A stretch of DNA of 31,677 bases, from IMG/VR virus record IMGVR_UViG_3300025671_000294, positions 1 to 31,677 of that record. One strand, 5' to 3'. Numbering within the stretch: position 1 is the first letter of the stretch; the number at the start of each line of letters is the position of its first letter. A model generated the notes under the pieces. That model saw only the letters and a program-made list of their open reading frames with translations. It was not told where the DNA came from and ran no database searches. The position numbers and the translations under genes are program-made. The DNA is from a virus. This document shows, piece by piece, positions 893-22,520 of the stretch.

Positions 893-1399
893 ATGGCGCT
901 CTCATTCCTCCCTGACGCTGACCTCACGCTTGACGTGGTTGTGACTTGTGACCCAGCTGTAAAGGCTACACCTGAGCAGGTGGGCGAGTATCTTGAGAGC
1001 GGTGATGTGAACGCGCTTGAGAGTTATGAGGGCGCTACTATCTTCACGCTCAAGGCGCTATCCCCAAGCGATAGGGAAACAGCGGAAGTCAGGGCGGGCG
1101 CCTATACCCGCTCAGAGCTTGGGCGTCTATTGTGGGTTGAAGCTCCTGACGACCCCAAAGATAAAGCCCGCTGGCACCATGAGCTAGCTGTTGATGAGCG
1201 TGAGGCGCTCGCCCAATATCAAGGCTACCTCAACCGCGTCTTTGTTGAGATGGTGAACGTGAGCCTAGTCAAGATTGACGGTGAAGACGCGGCGGGTAAG
1301 ATCGACCTCATCAAGCCTGAAAGCCACCGCCTCCAAGTCATCAGCGAGCTAGTGGGACACATTCAACGCATGAGCCTACTGGGTCACGCGGGAAAATAG
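893..1399 (+). CDS. tail assembly chaperone, unshifted form (lambda G analogue)
   Basis: This 168-residue acidic protein starts two bases after the tail tube stop. Its sequence has no recognisable enzyme motif. The assignment rests on architecture: it sits between the tube and tape measure genes and its last two sense codons (GGA AAA) form the slippery heptamer GGGAAAA immediately before the TAG stop, as in lambda G/GT-type chaperones. Such proteins bind the tape measure and recruit tube subunits during tail assembly and are not kept in the virion. The ATG at 893 has only a weak AGGA upstream, so translation may be coupled to the tube gene. Confidence 0.75.
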   Translation: MALSFLPDADLTLDVVVTCDPAVKATPEQVGEYLESGDVNALESYEGATIFTLKALSPSDRETAEVRAGAYTRSELGRLLWVEAPDDPKDKARWHHELAVDEREALAQYQGYLNRVFVEMVNVSLVKIDGEDAAGKIDLIKPESHRLQVISELVGHIQRMSLLGHAGK

Positions 1400-1821
1400 C
1401 GCTTGCGTCTTCCGTTTGGCTTGCCAACAGCGGGGGGCGCGGGTGGAGTTGTGAACAGTGCAGGGAGCGACCGGCGCTAAGGCGTCAGCGTGGCAACTGT
1501 GGGGGGGCTTTTAGGTCTGGGCTTCCACTAGCTCAAAAGGATGAGCGCGGGCTATTTGTACCCGGTTATCGAGTAGCGCCCAATTGTGGGGGGGCGTTCG
1601 CTGACCTTGAGGTCAGGGCTTGCCCTATAGCTGACGCCAACAGATTAGCGCCATTGATTAGCGCTTACCATAGACACCGGCAGGGCTTGGGCTCGATTGC
1701 TTCTAGTTATCCGCGCCCCACTTGTGCAATAATGGAAGCGCTTGACATTCTCCACAGTAACACCGAGGAGCTCCTCGCAAGACAAAGAGAACAAGCCGCT
1801 CAGGAGGCTCAACATGGCTGA
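893..1821 (+). CDS. tail assembly chaperone, -1 frameshift fusion (lambda GT analogue)
   Basis: A -1 slip on GGGAAAA at 1390-1396 bypasses the TAG at 1397-1399. I translated the -1 frame codon by codon and it stays open to a TGA at 1819-1821, giving 168 + 141 = 309 residues. The extension has seven cysteines, including CEQC, NCGG (twice) and RACP, which could bind a metal. It ends in a helical segment (MEALDILHSNTEELLARQ), as is common in T-type extensions. The frame has no good start of its own and fills what would otherwise be a gap of over 400 bases before the tape measure. In lambda the extension contacts the tape measure. The frameshift efficiency cannot be judged from sequence. Confidence 0.82.
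1390..1396 (+). promoter_or_regulatory. -1 ribosomal frameshift slippery site GGGAAAA
   Basis: The heptamer is in the correct phase (G GGA AAA, then TAG). Re-pairing in -1 gives GGG AAA followed by ATA. It fits the X XXY YYZ rule and is close to lambda's GGGAAAG. A small stem-loop (GTTTGG/CCAAC with loop CTTG, 1414-1428) lies about 17 bases downstream and could stimulate slippage, but it is weak and the zero-frame stop directly after the site may be enough. Confidence 0.82.
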
Positions 1822-3769
1822 GAATACAATTGAGATAGAAGTCGAGCTCAAAGGGCAAGAAGACACACTTGAGGGGCTAGAAGAAATCACCTCAAGCGCG
1901 GAAGGTATAGGAGAGACTTTTAAGGGGGTGGGTGATCTAGTTGGCAAAACTAACAAACAACTAGGGGAGAGCTTTAACGCTGTATCTGATGCTGTATCAC
2001 AAAGCGCTGAGGCGGTCACAGGGATAAAGGATTCATTCCTAGCGGTGGCTGAGGGTAGCGCCGGTATAAGCGCCCTCTTTGGTCCTATTGCTCTTTTGAC
2101 CGCCGCCCTTGGTGGCGTTTATGAAGCCTATCGGCAAGTCTCAGGAGCGGCGCGTGAGGCTGAAGAGAGACAGGAGGCACTAGCCGCCGCCTCATCTGAC
2201 CTCACACAAAAGCTAGAAGCCCTCGCTGAGAAGGGCTTGATTCCTGCAAGGAACGCCCTCCTTTTATATGTCAGGGCAAATCTTGAAGCCCAGCTCAAGA
2301 AGGAGCTTTTAGAGAAGAAAATAACACGCGCCACTAGGGTTCTACTTGAGGAGCAAGACGCCCAAAAGCAAGCGACTAAGGCGGCTCAGGCATACGTTAA
2401 AGCAGCTGAAGAACACGGCAAGAGCTCGCAAGAGGCTAAAAGAGCCCTAGTTAAACTAAACGAAGAAACAGCGATGTTTCAAAAAGCAATTAGGCAAAGC
2501 AAGACCACGTACAGCGCTTTAGGTCAAACCATCTCAAGCGTGAACACAGAGATAGCCGCCGCTGAGTCTCTCTATAAGTCGCTTGAAGATCAGACTAAGG
2601 AAAGCCTACAGACCAAGGCAAAAGAGCAAGCGGTCAGGCTTGCTGAAGTCAAAGCCCTACAAGCTCAAGTTCAGGCTCAGACAGAAGCCGACAAGCTGAC
2701 AAGGGCAAGGAACGCGGAACGACAAAAAGACCTGACTCTCAGCACCATTGAGAACCTCAACACTAAGCAATTGACCGCGCTCACCAAAGCCCAAAAGGTC
2801 GAGCTTGAGTCTCTCAATGAGGCAGCTTTAAAAGATGCCAAGCTCGCCCAAGAGATAGCCAAGCTCAACGAGAAGAAGGGCAAGTCAAGGGGCAAAGTGA
2901 CCAAGGCAACCCAAAGCCAAGCGGCGGCGCTTAAAGCTCTTGAGGCAGAGCAACGGCGCCAGCTTCTGATGGAGAGCCAACTTAGACAGCTTGATATTAA
3001 GCTCGCGAAAGAGGGCGATGATGAGCGCTTGGCTTTAGCGCGTGAGCGATATGAAACAGGTCTTCAGCTCGCCAAAGATAACGTCACAGCCCGCGCTATA
3101 GTTCAGAAGCAATATCAACTGGAGACTCAACAAATCAGGGACCAAGCTTTTCAACGCGAGCTTGCAAACATGGACAAGCTAGAGAAAGAGCGCGAGCTCA
3201 GGAGACAGAAGCGCCTTGAGGCTGAAAAGCAAGCCATGAGGAAACAGGCAAGGGAACAAGAGCAAATGCTCAAGATGGTGGGTGATGTCATAGACCGTTA
3301 TGGTGAAGGGCTCGCCAAAGCTGGCGTCAACGCTCTCCTGTTTGGTGAGGGCTTCAAGAAGGCGGCGGGCGAGGTGCTCAAAGGTTTGGCGGTTGAGTCA
3401 GGTGTTCGAGCGCTGATGGAGACAGCAAAGGCGGCGGCGGCTCTATTTATCAACCCAGCCCTAGCGGCGTCTCACGCTAAGAGCGCGGGGCTATATGTAG
3501 CGGCGGCGGCGGCGGCGCGAGCGGGCGCGGGTGCTCTTGGCGCTGGCGGTGGTGGAGGAGGTGCAACGGCTTCCCCCACAGGAGCTCCCCAAGTAGCAAC
3601 GGCGCCCCAAAGAGAAACAGCCGAAACCCAAGCCACCACCATAAACATAAACTTTGGCGGGGCGGTTGTGTATGACACAAGGGAAGCGGCTAGAAGGGCA
3701 ATGATGAATGAGCTCGTCAGAACATACAACGGCAACCCTAGAAGCGTTCAACGCTTTAGCATGAGGTGA
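1814..3769 (+). CDS. tail tape measure protein
   Basis: The ATG at 1814 is chosen because AGGAGG at 1802-1807 sits six bases upstream; earlier in-frame starts (such as 1742) would run through the chaperone extension. The start overlaps the chaperone stop (ATGGCTGA). The product has 651 residues. It is dominated by long Lys/Glu/Ala/Gln-rich helices and coiled coil over about residues 50-480, followed by a hydrophobic Ala-rich helical stretch (about 500-570) and a Gly-run linker near the C-terminus. This layout is typical of tape measures, which set tail length and help DNA entry. At about 0.15 nm per residue it would imply a tail of roughly 100 nm. Confidence 0.88.
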   Translation: MAENTIEIEVELKGQEDTLEGLEEITSSAEGIGETFKGVGDLVGKTNKQLGESFNAVSDAVSQSAEAVTGIKDSFLAVAEGSAGISALFGPIALLTAALGGVYEAYRQVSGAAREAEERQEALAAASSDLTQKLEALAEKGLIPARNALLLYVRANLEAQLKKELLEKKITRATRVLLEEQDAQKQATKAAQAYVKAAEEHGKSSQEAKRALVKLNEETAMFQKAIRQSKTTYSALGQTISSVNTEIAAAESLYKSLEDQTKESLQTKAKEQAVRLAEVKALQAQVQAQTEADKLTRARNAERQKDLTLSTIENLNTKQLTALTKAQKVELESLNEAALKDAKLAQEIAKLNEKKGKSRGKVTKATQSQAAALKALEAEQRRQLLMESQLRQLDIKLAKEGDDERLALARERYETGLQLAKDNVTARAIVQKQYQLETQQIRDQAFQRELANMDKLEKERELRRQKRLEAEKQAMRKQAREQEQMLKMVGDVIDRYGEGLAKAGVNALLFGEGFKKAAGEVLKGLAVESGVRALMETAKAAAALFINPALAASHAKSAGLYVAAAAAARAGAGALGAGGGGGGATASPTGAPQVATAPQRETAETQATTININFGGAVVYDTREAARRAMMNELVRTYNGNPRSVQRFSMR

Positions 3770-10863: not shown

Positions 10864-12897
10864 ATGTCAGTTCTATTCTTACCCCCATCAGCGGGCGCCG
10901 CTTCTGTACCTGACGCAAGTGAAACAGTCTCAGGAAAGATCAGGATAGCCACAAGCGCTGAAGCCACCACTGGTACAAACGACCTCACGGCAATGACACC
11001 TGCAAAGGTCAAGACCGTTGTAGATGCGGCGGTTGTTGGTGGCGTGACATATAAGGGCACTTTTGACGCTGCTGCGCCTCTTGATCTTAGCAACGCTGTA
11101 CAGGGTGATCTTTATATTATTGACGGTGCAGGCACTTATCAGGGGCAAGTGTGGGCGGTCGGTGATCATCTGCTTGTAAATGCAGATATGGGCGGCGCTG
11201 TTGACCCTGCCAAGATCGACAAGATTGACAGCACTGACGCCGTGACAAGCGTTGCAGGTAGAACCGGCGCGGTTGTTCTCTCCTCTTCTGATATCTCAGG
11301 GCTTGCAACCGTAGCAACATCAGGAGCTTATAGTGACCTGAGCGGAACGCCAACGCTCGCGACCGTAGCGACTACAGGAGCGTATAGTGACCTGAGCGGA
11401 ACGCCATCACTTGCGACCGTAGCGACCACAGGAGCGTATAGTGATCTGACCGGGACGCCAACGCTAGGCACGGCGGCGGCTGAGGATGTAGGCACAGCCG
11501 CTGGCAACGTGGTGCAGCTCAACGGATCAGCTCAACTTCCTGCTGTAGACGGCTCGCTGCTGACTAATGTGAGCGCGAGCGTTGCAGCTCTTAATGATGT
11601 GGGTGATGTAGACACCACAGGAGTGAGCACTAACAATGTCCTGAAGTATGATGGTGCAAACTGGGTTGATGGCTCTGTTGCTTATACTGAGGTAACAGGC
11701 ACGCCAACGCTCGCAACGGTCGCAACATCAGGGGCTTACTCTGATCTGACAGGCACGCCAACGCTAGGCACAGCAAGCGCCGAAGATGTGGGCACAGCCG
11801 CTGGCAACGTGGTGCAGCTCAATGGGTCAGCTCAACTCCCAGCCGTTGACGGCTCGCTTCTGACTAATGTGAGCGCGAGCGTTGCTGATCTTGACGATAT
11901 TGGCAATGTAGACACCACAGGAGTGAGCGCTAATAATGTCCTGAAGTATGATGGTGCAAACTGGGTTGATGGCTCTGTTGCTTATACTGAAGTAACAGGC
12001 ACGCCAACACTTGCGACCGTAGCAACTACAGGAGACTATAGCGATCTCAATGATTCTGTGGTTGTTCAGCAATTCAACACAACAACAACGTCAACCCCGA
12101 TTAACTCAAACGCCCTGCACGTCTTCCGGCTGTACGGCGGTGGTATCACTTTAACATTAGCTCAAGCGACCGTGGCGAATGGGTTTGCACTGTTTCATAA
12201 CCTCAGCGGCTCAGACGTAACGATCACAGGCGCTAGTACGTCATTTAGAGCAAACGGTGAGGGGGCTCTCGGCGGCTCAAGCTCGATTACTGTCAAGGCA
12301 GGTGAGCGGCGGCTTTATTATTTAGAGTCAACGCTTGTTTACATGGAAGTAAACAGCACGCGGCTTGAACATAATGGTGATGTGACAATCACAAGCGTAG
12401 CCAATAATGAGGTGATTAAATACAACAGCACCTCAGGAGATTGGGAAAATGGCGCGGTTGCTTATGCTGACGTAACAGGAACGCCAACGCTAGGAACAGC
12501 GGCGGCGGAAGATGTAGGCACAAGCGCCAACAACGTTGTGCAGCTCGATGGTACAGCGAGACTCCCAGCCGTTGACGGTTCACAGCTCACAAATCTCCCT
12601 ACAGCCGGCTATCCTTCACTCACATCAGCCTCTCCGACCTCAGCCTATACCATTTCCACTAGCACTGGGTTCATGGAGATTTATCTTCTAAATCCAACAG
12701 TAGCGATCACTGTAAACATCCCAGCGCCGGGCACTGTGTCATCTGGATACCGCTACAACATCAAGAATACATCAGCGAATAGCATCACGATCACGCCAGC
12801 GAGCGGAAATATTGATGGAGCTTCAACGCTTGTTCTTAATGTGCAATATTCAGCGGTTACGCTTGTGAGTGATCAATCAAACTGGTTTATCATCTAA
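10864..12897 (+). CDS. repeat-containing tail fibre protein
   Basis: A strong AAGGAG precedes the ATG. The N-terminus (residues 15-45, with SETVSGKIRIAT and LTAMTPAKV) has the pattern common in phage tail fibres and side tail fibre proteins. Residues about 147-200 are three 18-residue units (LATVATTGAYSDLSGTPT type). They are followed by two roughly 100-residue units and a partial third copy around residues 540-580 (LGTAAAEDVG...LPAVDGSQLTN). The last 90 residues form a different beta-rich domain that probably ends the fibre. Such repeats form trimeric shafts. The protein is 677 residues long and should mediate adsorption. Repeat copy number is likely to vary between relatives. Confidence 0.85.
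   Translation: MSVLFLPPSAGAASVPDASETVSGKIRIATSAEATTGTNDLTAMTPAKVKTVVDAAVVGGVTYKGTFDAAAPLDLSNAVQGDLYIIDGAGTYQGQVWAVGDHLLVNADMGGAVDPAKIDKIDSTDAVTSVAGRTGAVVLSSSDISGLATVATSGAYSDLSGTPTLATVATTGAYSDLSGTPSLATVATTGAYSDLTGTPTLGTAAAEDVGTAAGNVVQLNGSAQLPAVDGSLLTNVSASVAALNDVGDVDTTGVSTNNVLKYDGANWVDGSVAYTEVTGTPTLATVATSGAYSDLTGTPTLGTASAEDVGTAAGNVVQLNGSAQLPAVDGSLLTNVSASVADLDDIGNVDTTGVSANNVLKYDGANWVDGSVAYTEVTGTPTLATVATTGDYSDLNDSVVVQQFNTTTTSTPINSNALHVFRLYGGGITLTLAQATVANGFALFHNLSGSDVTITGASTSFRANGEGALGGSSSITVKAGERRLYYLESTLVYMEVNSTRLEHNGDVTITSVANNEVIKYNSTSGDWENGAVAYADVTGTPTLGTAAAEDVGTSANNVVQLDGTARLPAVDGSQLTNLPTAGYPSLTSASPTSAYTISTSTGFMEIYLLNPTVAITVNIPAPGTVSSGYRYNIKNTSANSITITPASGNIDGASTLVLNVQYSAVTLVSDQSNWFII
11302..11463 (+). 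repeat. three tandem 54-nt units in the tail fibre gene
   Basis: Units at 11302, 11356 and 11410 each encode an 18-residue LATVAT[ST]GAYSDL[ST]GTP[TS] motif. They are nearly identical at the DNA level, which suggests recent tandem expansion or selection for the shaft repeat. Confidence 0.85.
11464..12050 (+). repeat. two long tandem units (300-nt period) in the tail fibre gene
   Basis: The segments beginning at 11464 and 11764 are offset by exactly 300 nt and are nearly identical for most of their length (both encode EDVGTAAGNVVQLNGSAQLP and NNVLKYDGANWVDGSVAYTE). Each ends with another 18-residue unit. A diverged partial copy starts near 12487. Confidence 0.85.
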
Positions 12898-15266: not shown

Positions 15267-17270
15267 ATGCAGAATGATCTTTTAGGCGCGGTCGCGTTTG
15301 CCGCCCAATATGCACGTCCCCTGGTTGGAGGAGGTGGGCGCGAAACTTGGTATCAGGCGGCTTGCAGGGTTGAGGCTATGCACCTTAAGAGATACCCCCA
15401 AGTAGTGGGGGAAACTATGAGCGCCTTTAATTTAGTTCGTGATCAGAGGGTCTTTCCCTCTCAGCGCTCGACTCAGTTTGGAGGGCGTCCCATCGAGCGC
15501 AATAACATGAGGATATATAATTGCACGTATTCCCCATGTGACCGCCCGCGCTTCTTCAGTGAGGCTTTTTGGCTTCTCCTCTCAGGCTGCGGGACTGGCT
15601 TTAGTGTCAGGGCTGATGACATCAACCGCCTTCCACGCCTCCTGACCCTGAGCGAGTATGTGAGGAAAGAGCGCCGCGTCCATATGGTGACTGACTCCAT
15701 TGAGGGCTGGGCTCACGCTGTACAGCTCTTGATAGATAGCTATCTTCACCGCGGGTACTATGAGGAGTATTATGATTATAAGTTTGACTTCTCGCTTGTC
15801 AGACAGAAGGGCGCCCCCATTAGCTCAGGCGGTCACGCCCCCGGTCCCGCTCCACTAGAGACCGCGCTTGATAAGATTGATGAGCTCTTTGTGAATCTCA
15901 TCAAGTCAGGCTCAATGAGGCTCAGGTCAATTGACGCCTTTGATATCATGATGCTCTTGTCGGAAGCCGTCCTCTCAGGTGGTGTGAGGCGTAGCGCCTC
16001 CATTGCTATATTCGATGAAGATGACGCGCTCATGATGCAAGCCAAAACGGGGGACTGGTGGAAAGACCACCCTCAGAGGGCTTATGCAAACATCTCAGCG
16101 GGTCTGAGTATTGTGGGCGCTGACCGCTCCACGGTTGATCAGGTTGTAAATATGGCTCGCCAATGGGGAGAGCCGGGCGTCTTGTGGCAAGCTGACCCAA
16201 TGCACGGCACCAACCCATGCGCTGAAATTGGGCTCTTTCCGTATGTAGTCACTGATAGCAAAGGTGATCACGTCACAGAGATCACGCTTGAGATGTTAGC
16301 TAATCGTGAGAAGTATGAGGCGCGGGGCTGGGACTTCATGAGCGGCTGGGCTGTTTGCAACCTCACAGAGATCAACGGCGCGAAAGTTAAGAGCCGTGAA
16401 GACTTCCTTGAGGCTTGCAGGGCGGCGGCTCACATTGGGACGCTACAGGCGGGCTACACCCATCAGGGCTATCTTCTACTCAATACAAGGGTGATCATGA
16501 AACAAGAGTCACTGCTTGGGGTATCTATCACGGGTATGTGTTCAGCTCCTGACCTGCTGTTTAATCCTGAGCTACTTGAGGAGGGGGCGCGGGTATGTAT
16601 CGAGCAAAACAAAGCGACAGCCAAAGCTATCGGGATTAAGCCCGCCTCAAGGGTCACCACAGTAAAGCCCAGCGGGAACACCTCCACGGTGGCGGGTACT
16701 AGCGCGGGCGTCCACCCCTTCCACGCTCGCAGATACATAAGACGAATGAGGATAGCCCGCGTCAATCCTGTGTGGGATGAGCTGTGGGCTAAGGTCCCAG
16801 AGGCTTGCCTTGAGCTTGATAAGCACACGGGCGTGGTGGCGTTCGCTTGTGGAGCTCCTGAAGGGGCGCTCACTAGAGAGGAGGATACAGCCCTTGACCA
16901 CCTTGAGCGGGTGCGCTTGGTATATCAACACTGGGTTAAACCGGGTTCAGCTCCATCGAGGGTTGAGGGGTTGACCCATAATGTATCTAACACCTGCACC
17001 GTTAAGGATGAAGAGTGGGGCGCGGTCGCTGACTTCTTGTGGGACGCTCGCGAGGAGCTCAGGGGGGTTGCGCTCTTGGGTTGGTTTGGTGATAGCGCTT
17101 ATGATAACGCCCCTTACCAAACAGTAGAGGAGGGGAGTGAGGCAGAGGAGACTTGGAACCGCCTCATGTCTCTTGATTGGTCAGGGGTCAACCTGCTAGG
17201 TATCGAGGGTGATTATTATGACGCCACCCTTGAGCCCGCTTGCTCCTCCGGTCAATGCACTATCCAATGA
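15267..17270 (+). CDS. nrdJ: class II (adenosylcobalamin-dependent) ribonucleotide reductase
   Basis: The 667-residue enzyme reduces ribonucleotides to deoxyribonucleotides. GGAGG lies six bases before the ATG. The NCTYSPCDRPRFFSEAFWLL segment (C86) with SGCGTGFSV matches the first redox cysteine region. NPCAEI gives the radical-site cysteine C318 with E320, and CNLTE the partner C364. PSGNTSTVAGTSAGVHP is the substrate-phosphate region. The C-terminus carries a CxxxxC pair (C659, C664), as in the Lactobacillus leichmannii monomeric triphosphate reductase (739 residues). It is shorter than that enzyme and no small radical subunit is encoded nearby, consistent with class II. Together with ThyX it supports a self-reliant nucleotide supply that needs cobalamin and a host reductant. 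Confidence 0.93.
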   Translation: MQNDLLGAVAFAAQYARPLVGGGGRETWYQAACRVEAMHLKRYPQVVGETMSAFNLVRDQRVFPSQRSTQFGGRPIERNNMRIYNCTYSPCDRPRFFSEAFWLLLSGCGTGFSVRADDINRLPRLLTLSEYVRKERRVHMVTDSIEGWAHAVQLLIDSYLHRGYYEEYYDYKFDFSLVRQKGAPISSGGHAPGPAPLETALDKIDELFVNLIKSGSMRLRSIDAFDIMMLLSEAVLSGGVRRSASIAIFDEDDALMMQAKTGDWWKDHPQRAYANISAGLSIVGADRSTVDQVVNMARQWGEPGVLWQADPMHGTNPCAEIGLFPYVVTDSKGDHVTEITLEMLANREKYEARGWDFMSGWAVCNLTEINGAKVKSREDFLEACRAAAHIGTLQAGYTHQGYLLLNTRVIMKQESLLGVSITGMCSAPDLLFNPELLEEGARVCIEQNKATAKAIGIKPASRVTTVKPSGNTSTVAGTSAGVHPFHARRYIRRMRIARVNPVWDELWAKVPEACLELDKHTGVVAFACGAPEGALTREEDTALDHLERVRLVYQHWVKPGSAPSRVEGLTHNVSNTCTVKDEEWGAVADFLWDAREELRGVALLGWFGDSAYDNAPYQTVEEGSEAEETWNRLMSLDWSGVNLLGIEGDYYDATLEPACSSGQCTIQ

Positions 17271-17401
17271 ACGCCGCAATCGTCCTCATCCTCATTTTCC
17301 TCTTTGGCTTCTTCTCTGATTGGATAGCTGAGGTGATGGGGGATAACTTATGGGCGCTGTCAATCATCCTCCTCATCCTGTATGGAGTGATGACAAGCTA
17401 A
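17267..17401 (+). CDS. 44-residue two-helix membrane protein
   Basis: This short gene starts in ATGA overlap with the RNR stop. Two hydrophobic helices (about residues 4-16 and 29-42) flank a short acidic loop (SDWIAEVMGDN). No separate ribosome binding site is evident, so expression would depend on coupling to RNR. It overlaps the convergent gene's stop by four bases. Function is unknown; the size and topology are compatible with a small holin-like protein. Confidence 0.5.
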   Translation: MNAAIVLILIFLFGFFSDWIAEVMGDNLWALSIILLILYGVMTS

Positions 17402-17892
17402 GATATATTCTTACCTCTTCGCTTGCGCATATATTCACGCGCTTTCTTTAAGCGCTCTTCGCGTTGCTCAGGTGTTTCGTTTGCTCTCCGCTTGCGCTGA
17501 TTTTCACGCTTTTTCTTTAAGCGCTCTTCGCGTTGCTCAGGCGTTTCGCTTGCTCTTTGCTTATGATAGAGCTTGCGCATACGTTCACGCGCTTTCTTTA
17601 AGCGCTCTTCGCGTTGCTCAGGTGTTTCGCTTGCTCTTTGCTTATGATAGGGCTTGGGGTAGCGCTTGCGCATATATTCACGCACTTTCTTTAAGCGCTC
17701 TTCGCGTTGCTCAGGTGTTTCGCTTGCTTTTTTCTTCTGATAGTACTTGCGCATATATTCACGCTTTTTCTTTAAGCGCTCTTCGCGTTGCTCGGGTGTC
17801 TCGTTAGTATTCAAAGCTTTATCAGGGTGATAACGTATGCCCCACCACGTCAGGGGGCTGTTAGACGACCAGCTTAGCCTCAGAGTAGCCAA
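17398..17892 (-). CDS. highly basic tandem-repeat protein of unknown function
   Basis: The frame encodes up to 164 residues, with five copies of a core ETPEQREERLKK.RE.MRK separated by short Lys/Arg/Tyr-rich linkers. The sequence is extremely basic and predicted helical, suggesting nucleic-acid binding. Similar short basic repeats occur as linkers in some phage HNH or NUMOD proteins, but no HNH or other catalytic motif is present. The start is uncertain: the only early candidate is TTG at 17892, inside the 3' end of the RecT-like gene, without a clear ribosome binding site. A TTG near 17815 or coupling to the upstream stop are alternatives. It is last in the leftward operon. Confidence 0.6.
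   Translation of the reverse strand: MATLRLSWSSNSPLTWWGIRYHPDKALNTNETPEQREERLKKKREYMRKYYQKKKASETPEQREERLKKVREYMRKRYPKPYHKQRASETPEQREERLKKARERMRKLYHKQRASETPEQREERLKKKRENQRKRRANETPEQREERLKKAREYMRKRRGKNIS
17442..17805 (-). repeat. five near-identical repeats with in-frame variable spacing
   Basis: The 20-base core agcgctcttcgcgttgctca (in + orientation) begins at 17451, 17520, 17601, 17694 and 17775. The last copy has one change. Distances are 69, 81, 93 and 81 bases, all multiples of three, so the units encode 23, 27, 31 and 27 residues. Confidence 0.88.
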
Positions 17893-18787
17893 GGCTTAAG
17901 ATGACCTTGTGGAGCTCATCAAGCTCATCAGCGCTTGCCTCCTCTTGGGCGATATGCCACAGGGCAACCGTGAAGGACTCGACATCAAGCCAGCTCTCCA
18001 CGGCGTTCCCTTTGCTCTTAATTAGCGCCATCTTCTCAGGGTGCCACTCACTCTCAACTAGCTCGCCAAAGTCTTCATCAAAGCGCCCCATTGTAGCCAC
18101 GTCAATCAATCGGGTGACAACGTGTTGAGGAGAGGGGCGCTCACTCGCTGGGATGTCAACGAGAGCGGGAGGGATGTGAGGGTCAGCGGGTGGGGCGCTG
18201 TCAACCGCCTTATGCTGTGATGGTGGAACAGGCTTGGGTTGAGTCGAGACCTTGTGGAGCTCCTCGCCTAAAGAGTCAGCGCTTATCATAGCCCGCTCAT
18301 CGTCAGATATGCTCATGTTGTCTGCAAGCTCATCAGGTGAGTAGATACCACTTACCGCGTCAGGATAGGTGGCGCGTAGCATAAGGGTGAGCGCTCGCGC
18401 TCTTAACATCTGCATTGGCATTTGCTGCCAGTTGCGATTGCGGGTGAGCCCCTGAGCTTGAGCCATTTGGATGGTGTAAGTGAACGTATGAACAACGCTC
18501 TCAGGCTCATCATTTCGAGCGCAAGTATAGGTGCAGTGGTCATGGTCCCATGAGCTTATGACCATGTAACGACATAAGCCAGACCTCCTCACCACGCCCG
18601 CCATAGCGTCAGCGTTTAAGCTGGGCTTACCCTTAAGCATATAGGCGTTATTCTGTGTGATAGCCATATCACCGCTGAAGTGAGCGCCAAAGGCGGCGTG
18701 TAACCTGAGACAGTCTTGAGGACGGTCACTGATGAGGGTTGCAATCTCTTTGGCTTGGTCGAGTGTAGTTGGTGTGTAAATACCCAT
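17861..18787 (-). CDS. RecT/Red-beta-like single-strand annealing protein
   Basis: The 308-residue protein has RecT-type features: a KGKPSLNADAM segment (about residues 52-62) followed by RRSGLCRYMV, and the signature MPMQMLRARALTLMLRATYPDAVSGIYSPDEL (about 122-153), matching the conserved M..R..A..LR..YPD...G.Y..EE core of RecT-family recombinases. A Pro-rich linker (about 185-225) leads to a C-terminal helical domain of unknown role (230-308). Such proteins anneal homologous DNA strands during recombination-dependent replication and repair. No neighbouring exonuclease was recognised. It is encoded in the leftward early block. Confidence 0.78.
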   Translation of the reverse strand: MGIYTPTTLDQAKEIATLISDRPQDCLRLHAAFGAHFSGDMAITQNNAYMLKGKPSLNADAMAGVVRRSGLCRYMVISSWDHDHCTYTCARNDEPESVVHTFTYTIQMAQAQGLTRNRNWQQMPMQMLRARALTLMLRATYPDAVSGIYSPDELADNMSISDDERAMISADSLGEELHKVSTQPKPVPPSQHKAVDSAPPADPHIPPALVDIPASERPSPQHVVTRLIDVATMGRFDEDFGELVESEWHPEKMALIKSKGNAVESWLDVESFTVALWHIAQEEASADELDELHKVILSLGYSEAKLVV

Positions 18788-21752: not shown

Positions 21753-21853
21753 GTCGAGCGCCGTGACCTCTTGGTGCTCGATGGGTTGTGAGCCTCCTCT
21801 CTCTGCGTGATTCCGGCAAGAAACTTCAGAGATTGGGGGCTTTGTCTATTTCT
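21753..21853 (+). ncRNA. candidate small RNA 2
   Basis: Downstream of P2, CGAGCGCC (21755-21762) pairs with GGTGCTCG (21773-21780) around a ten-base loop. A second long hairpin (21791-21841) and a T-rich tail follow. The order promoter block, CGAGC hairpin, GAGCCTC hairpin, T-rich end is the same as in cassette 1 although the primary sequence has diverged, which points to selection on RNA structure. The 5' end is inferred. Confidence 0.48.
21791..21853 (+). terminator. terminator-like long hairpin after small RNA 2
   Basis: AGCCTCC...CTCTG pairs with CAGAG...GGGGGCT (15 positions with one G-U and a two-base mismatch) around a 21-base loop. It is followed by TTGTCTATTTCT. The large loop makes it a weaker terminator than the first. 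It reaches the 3' end of the convergent thyX gene. Confidence 0.5.
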
Positions 21854-22520
21854 AGGAGAGCGCTATCTTAAGCATCCTATCCATTCCCTCGATACTCTTA
21901 ATGCAGTCACGAGCGGCGGCGGCGTAGTACCTCATTTCAGCTTGGGCGTGGTTATCAAGCCTCAGCTGTAGGAAGTGTATGAGCGCGTGAAGAGAGCAGC
22001 TCCAGAAGCACTCACTCATAAGAGACAAGGGCAACACGGCGCGGGCTTGCTCTTTAGCTACTCCCATAGCCAACAGCTCACGATAAACGCAAAAGTTTGC
22101 GGCGCTCGCCCTCTGATAAAGTAACTCGACCGATAACGCGGCGTGGTCTGGCATAGCGCCCCCTGACCCTTGCTTCACCTTCTCTGAGCTCTCGCGCCAC
22201 TCTGAGGGTTGCCACACCTCACCCTCAAACTCTACATATCTCCCGCTGATCTCATTCCAAGCGCACCCAACTTGATGCTTCATCCATTGGCGTAAGATGA
22301 AGATGGGCGCCTTGATGTGAAATTGAAATTGAACGTGTCTAAATGGTGAGGTGTGCTTATGGGTCCACAGGTACTCAATAAGCTTCCAATCCTTCTCACT
22401 CATCTCCTCTGAGCGCTTGCCCATTGACACCCTGGCGCTGTTCACCACTGACAAGGGTGAGCCCATGTGATCGACCAAAGAGACAAAGCCGCCCTGTGTT
22501 GTTATTTTATTCTCAATCAT
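21852..22520 (-). CDS. thyX: flavin-dependent thymidylate synthase ThyX
   Basis: The 222-residue protein matches ThyX in length and in the segments HTSPFRHVQFQFHIKAP and RQWMKHQVGCAWNEISGRY (residues 77-95). ThyX makes dTMP from dUMP with FAD, NADPH and methylenetetrahydrofolate. The usual RHRx7S signature is altered: KHQ (81-83) replaces RHR, and eight rather than seven residues separate it from S92. The NE.S.RY part is intact, so a functional divergent variant is likely. GAGG lies four bases before the ATG. It is transcribed opposite to its neighbours and shares its upstream gap with ssb. Confidence 0.9.
   Translation of the reverse strand: MIENKITTQGGFVSLVDHMGSPLSVVNSARVSMGKRSEEMSEKDWKLIEYLWTHKHTSPFRHVQFQFHIKAPIFILRQWMKHQVGCAWNEISGRYVEFEGEVWQPSEWRESSEKVKQGSGGAMPDHAALSVELLYQRASAANFCVYRELLAMGVAKEQARAVLPLSLMSECFWSCSLHALIHFLQLRLDNHAQAEMRYYAAAARDCIKSIEGMDRMLKIALS

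Follow-up and report, generated by a model that had tools for sequence, protein, structure and literature searches.

A phage tail chaperone gene with a stop codon abutting its predicted -1 frameshift site and a cysteine-rich extension in the -1 frame

The viral DNA studied here, hereafter the window, is the whole stretch of 31,677 nucleotides that was analysed (IMG/VR record IMGVR_UViG_3300025671_000294). Near its 5′ end, two overlapping reading frames sit between the genes for a tail tube protein and a tape measure protein. The region contains the following features.

24–890, + strand: tail tube or major tail protein gene, directly upstream of the chaperone, start uncertain; assigned from PHROG 290 (‘minor tail protein’, tail category, E 7e-7) and from position.
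893–1399, + strand: tail assembly chaperone, the 0-frame product, G-like, 168 aa; assigned from an AlphaFold model, fold matches and gene order.
1390–1396, + strand: slippery heptamer G GGA AAA, in phase; GGGAAAR in 97/97 records.
1397–1399, + strand: 0-frame stop TAG touching the heptamer; a stop at the same codon in 94/97 records.
1405–1440, + strand: putative stimulatory RNA hairpin with arms 1405–1412 and 1433–1440, 8 nt 3′ of the heptamer; longer in the window’s own fold.
1396–1821, + strand: -1 frame extension, T-like, 141 aa, predicted to be made only as a fusion; assigned from the open frame, selection and a structural model.
1450–1623, + strand: invariant cysteines of a candidate metal site, C19 (1450–1452), C22 (1459–1461), C35 (1498–1500) and C76 (1621–1623), in 47/47 rows.
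1802–1807, + strand: AGGAGG, read from the sequence as the ribosome binding site for the tape measure protein.
1814–3769, + strand: gene for a tape measure protein of 651 aa, so named from its position and size; no PHROG or Pfam match.

A sequence-only reading of this DNA had proposed that a programmed -1 frameshift adds a cysteine-rich extension to a tail chaperone, and the layout that it described is borne out. GGGAAAA lies in the phase G GGA AAA, TAG follows it immediately, and the -1 frame is open for 143 codons from the heptamer (141 after the slip), ending at TGA 1819–1821. There it overlaps the tape measure gene (ATG 1814) by 8 bases, so that the two frames and the AGGAGG meet as described. 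The predicted frameshift product has 168 + 141 = 309 residues. One detail needs correction: the extension contains six cysteines (residues 19, 22, 35, 64, 76 and 110) rather than seven, the seventh belonging to the chaperone part. Under a first-order Markov model of the stretch, an open frame of 140 codons arises by chance in 0.5% of trials, and the remaining forward frames contain stops. Two other ways of extending the chaperone were considered and rejected, namely readthrough of TAG, because more 0-frame stops follow, and a +1 shift, because that frame stops early.

The -1 frame offers few places at which translation could begin. From its upstream stop at 1318 to about 1653 it contains no ATG, GTG or TTG, so the cysteine-rich part is without a start of its own; over 250 bases past the junction are start-free, and the first -1 frame starts in the window lie at +257, +290 and +335 from the stop codon. 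The extension might instead be a separate protein made by reinitiation at the stop, an account that draws on two divergent records (L129 and L130) in which a -1 frame ATG lies at or beside the stop. However, starts in other records are sporadic and unconserved, and reinitiation leaves both the heptamer and the hairpin described below unexplained; together with the start-free stretch in the window, these points make it very improbable as a general account. At the junctions of L129 and L130 themselves (about 2990–3010), the stops TAA and TGA overlap or touch the -1 ATG, and coupled reinitiation may occur there.

Comparison with relatives allows the frameshift reading to be examined base by base. 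Viral contigs were scanned with the chaperone, with the extension and with an alignment of the extension; the best 80 of 184 relatives from the alignment scan were kept, and the rest of the 184 were included only if the chaperone or extension scan had found them. The resulting set, in which the window is counted, comprises 97 distinct viral records whose junction can be read; they share ancestry and therefore represent fewer than 97 independent events. Clustering at 90% chaperone identity reduced these to 42 representatives; L129, which has no full chaperone, is in no cluster. Seven loci that end before the junction (L040–L046), as well as L133 and L134, stand outside the 97, and the records of L015 and L034 end before the end of the extension. 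Codon randomisation along the extension drew on 90 of the 97, with 76 unique extensions, whereas counts of hairpin pairing and covariation used 91 (63 unique junctions). The codon alignment and a repeat of the hairpin test used 41 of the 42 representatives (without L034), and dN/dS was calculated for 37 (without L034, L051, L052, L053 and L130). A tblastn search of 50,697 GenBank phage records gave no match for either half of the predicted fusion, the terminase or the tail tube protein; the ribonucleotide reductase of the window matched 1080 of these 50,697 records, all at <60% identity.

Relatives without the heptamer, or with stops in the -1 frame, had been named as evidence that would count against a frameshift, and neither kind was found. 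Wherever the -1 frame can be read to its end it is open, with an extension of 137–145 codons, and the heptamer is kept in all 97 records (GGGAAAA in 95, GGGAAAG in two). By itself GGGAAAA is ordinary in the window (5 found, 3.45 expected), so it is phase, position and conservation that carry the argument. The codon 5′ of GGA is GAG, TCG, CGG, GCG or CAG; these encode five amino acids, and the third base is always G, whereas in the rest of these genes only 7% of Ser codons and 17% of Arg codons end in G. Likewise, the slip-site Gly is GGA in 97/97 records, against 57 of the 325 Gly codons elsewhere in the representatives. A comparison of synonymous substitution at the heptamer and in the -1 frame, suggested in the earlier reading as a check, points the same way: among the 41 representatives, synonymous identity peaks at fusion residues 163–174 (ratios 2.24 and 1.93) and reaches 1.51 at residues 181–186, the 3′ arm of the hairpin, with ratios of mostly 1.0–1.4 in other windows. 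A short final window that covers the start of the tape measure gene has a ratio of 2.47 from fewer pairs. Upstream of that start, fusion residues 283–288 (codons about 1738–1755) show a raised synonymous ratio of 1.53.

The stop is nearly as well conserved as the heptamer. The codon directly 3′ of the heptamer is a stop in 94 of the 97 records (TAG in 92, TAA in one and TGA in one); three records (L034, L111 and L115) have a sense codon there and a stop two codons further on, indicating that contact between heptamer and stop is not obligatory. Of the 38 representatives with Ile as the first -1 frame residue, 37 use ATA for it, against 131 of 643 Ile codons elsewhere. Only ATA makes a 0-frame TAG, and the stop is therefore held beyond what the residues of the extension need.

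This arrangement raises the possibility of a shifty stop, in which the ribosome would slip while AAA occupies the P site and the stop the A site, and competition with release factor would set the ratio of short to long product. The abutting stop, its persistence as TAA and as TGA, and the excess of ATA all fit such a mechanism, and in the plant virus PEMV, according to PMC4737148, putting a sense codon in place of the stop cut frameshifting by 72% in vitro. However, keeping the end of the chaperone explains conservation of the stop equally well, since the next 0-frame stop in the window lies 27 codons past TAG 1397, and the stop is displaced in the three records noted above. A C follows TAG in 89 of 94 records, but a conserved Ala codon forces it. 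Moreover, slippage in the P site alone needs just AAA-A, yet the third-position G and the GGA are kept in 97/97 records. We consider a shifty stop unlikely; the stop itself may still aid slippage. Because GGG is fixed as well as AAAA, both tRNAs probably re-pair, in a tandem slip before the stop enters the A site; the conserved GGG favours ordinary tandem slippage.

The strongest support for the frameshift reading, and one that goes beyond the earlier reading, is a conserved hairpin downstream of the stop. In the unique junctions, the 45 bases 3′ of the stop form one main stem, which begins 8 nt past the heptamer and occurs in two registers three bases apart; for this reason, a single pairing common to all hairpins fails. 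When synonymous codons were randomised with the -1 protein held fixed, the hairpin had a mean z of -2.91 and all 76 unique extensions were more stable than their own mean, whereas 25 other windows along the extension averaged -0.74 to +0.26 under the same randomisation. Repeating the test on the 41 representatives gave a mean z of -2.96, with 41/41 below -1 and the window’s own sequence at -3.8; none of nine windows in the chaperone gene fell below -0.87 in the same test.

Base pairing was also counted within each register. The 63 unique junctions were split into registers of 25 and 38 sequences by eye, after the sequences had been seen, and the pairing and covariation counts consequently lean toward the hairpin; the randomisation tests are independent of register. 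With that leaning, 98.0% of cells pair in the first register, against 88.7% when shuffled and at most 64.5% when slid, and 80.1% pair in the second, against 66.2% and at most 67.8%, with four covarying pairs changed on both sides in the first register and seven in the second. Folding of 1397–1500 as a lone sequence gave a weak signal against dinucleotide shuffles (z -1.56); the hairpin signal is clear only with the protein held fixed and relatives included.

These data also bear on whether the extra frame could stem from slippage of RNA polymerase, or from a decayed or missequenced gene. A run of A at the junction speaks for such an origin, but the run is only four A long, the same junction recurs in 97 records, and selection for the hairpin acts at the level of RNA, with its 8 nt spacer. 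Both frames are under purifying selection as well: the median dN/dS is 0.137 for the extension (the 61 of 666 pairs with dS < 1.5) and 0.184 for the chaperone (45 pairs). An origin of this kind is therefore the least probable of the accounts considered, and we give it almost no weight.

The identity of the 0-frame product as a tail chaperone, assumed in the earlier reading, is supported by fold and gene order rather than by sequence families. Searches against Pfam and PHROGs gave no convincing family match for it, and lambda G/T and HK97 gp13/gp14 gave no profile match to either half. Its AlphaFold model (pLDDT 86.9) has as its best solved match 2ob9, the tail assembly chaperone of HK97 (Z 6.3, rmsd 3.0, 85 aligned residues), followed by YqbN (3klu, Z 5.7), Z values that are middling scores taken alone. 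A fold search of viral models gave no match at E <= 0.001, and annotated tail assembly chaperones ranked 1 and 3. The predicted model thus makes a chaperone fold supported rather than proved.

The extension is a compact, well-predicted domain, as judged from its model (pLDDT 93.4, pTM 0.81), and is without a family or clear structural match. The profile search against families that the earlier reading had called for returned no family in Pfam, PHROGs or NCBIfam, and comparison with PDB sequences gave nothing convincing. A fold search of the PDB gave no match at E <= 0.001 (best Z 3.6 on a second look), and viral models include one close relative, A0A516LZP6, with 60% identity across 83 columns. 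Against lambda T and HK97 gp14 the hhalign probability was <1%, in a weak test based on single sequences.

Four of the six cysteines (C19, C22, C35 and C76) are invariant in 47/47 aligned rows, one of them only 31% identical, which makes a four-cysteine metal site plausible. C110 is nearly invariant, and C64 is often Ser in relatives. The invariant residues supply the four conserved Cys/His ligands by which a zinc-binding domain may be recognised, and zinc binding by this CxxC-C-C set is plausible from the sequence, as a candidate site. Both NCGG motifs of the extension are encoded by an 18-base direct repeat (1494–1511 and 1581–1598), whose copies are 89% alike and contain seven consecutive G; the cysteine of the second motif is not conserved in relatives.

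Making both a short and a long tail chaperone through -1 slippage is a textbook principle, and the closest parallel to the present locus is lambda G/GT. The two share gene order, and in each a G GGA AAR site for -1 slippage comes shortly before the chaperone gene ends and a T part is read to the start of the tape measure gene. The nine bases of the lambda site, GGGAAAG in GCG GGA AAG, recur in relatives L051 and L052. The two differ in spacing, with 15 nt separating stop from heptamer in lambda and none here, and neither half matches by sequence. HK97 gp13/gp14 is likewise similar in its chaperone fold (the 2ob9 match), gene order and a frameshifted extension before the tape measure gene, but shows no sequence profile match to the halves in the window. 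In P2, the annotated shift site is about 17 nt 5′ of the stop, against 0 nt here, and the heptamer–stop distance averages 26 and 36 nt in two phage sets (PMC10885494).

Sites with an abutting stop are found among plant RNA viruses. As described in PMC4737148, the 0-frame stop comes immediately past the heptamer in BYDV, RCNMV and GRV, with RNA structure just downstream, and 3 nt past it in PEMV. These luteovirus, dianthovirus and umbravirus sites (BYDV, RCNMV and GRV) thus resemble ours in both stop and downstream structure; they differ in serving a polymerase extension and in their heptamers (GRV has AAAUUUU), and their spacers are shorter and their structures larger.

Distant relatives lie in two metagenome-assembled bacterial genomes (L133 and L134), with CCCAAAA at the same place and a 0-frame stop 132 nt later. 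L133 encodes a homologous chaperone (hhalign 93%) and an extension with the same four cysteines. Set against this locus, lambda, P2 and the two phage-set averages, the abutting stop seems characteristic of the window’s clade. L133 and L134 are very similar phage stretches in contigs binned as Fluviicola sp. and Planctomycetota bacterium; they are probably mis-binned virus, and the bins thus do not name a host. The accessible portions of the literature retrieved in our search describe neither a phage tail chaperone whose stop adjoins the heptamer nor a cysteine-rich T domain. The locus departs from the classical lambda kind in two respects, the stop at the slip site and the cysteine-rich T domain, and its clade has no counterpart among the annotated phages searched.

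The conserved heptamer, the open -1 frames and the hairpin together support the central proposal of the earlier reading, a programmed -1 frameshift that extends the tail chaperone. We are highly confident that the locus is a tail chaperone gene of the lambda G/GT type, in which a -1 frameshift makes forms of 168 and 309 residues. The inferred course of events is as follows. The majority of ribosomes would end at TAG 1397 and release the 168-residue chaperone, which would coat the tape measure protein. A minority would pause at the hairpin 8 nt downstream with GGA and AAA in the ribosome, slip back one base in tandem (G GGA AAA to GGG AAA) and read 141 more codons, yielding the 309-residue chaperone-plus-extension. 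In lambda, gpG is made with a minor gpGT by a -1 shift, and G binds the tape measure while T binds the tail tube protein (PMC5009743). By analogy, the extension may recruit the tail tube protein onto the complex of tape measure and chaperone.

A more ambitious combination, in which heptamer, abutting stop and hairpin form a switch sensitive to release factor and the long form carries a new class of zinc-binding T domain, strikes us as rather doubtful. If true, the switch would make the proportion of the two chaperone forms depend on how efficiently translation terminates in the host. The placement of the stop makes an old question testable, namely whether a stop beside the slip site aids frameshifting in bacteria. 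The clade also provides a clean comparative case: with 97 records and synonymous sites near saturation, the heptamer, stop and hairpin can be read from evolution alone.

Elsewhere, the window is a short siphovirus-like record that encodes a B12-dependent ribonucleotide reductase (15267–17270) and a ThyX-type thymidylate synthase (21852–22520). A fibre-like gene (10864–12897) contains repeated stretches of the type ATVATTGAYSDLSGTP. A small gene on the - strand (17398–17892), whose start overlaps the 3′ end of a RecT-like gene (17861–18787), encodes 23-residue peptide repeats ETPEQREERLKK that match the Pfam family STPRs, the ‘score and three amino acid peptide repeats’ (PF21107, E 5e-24), in four stretches.
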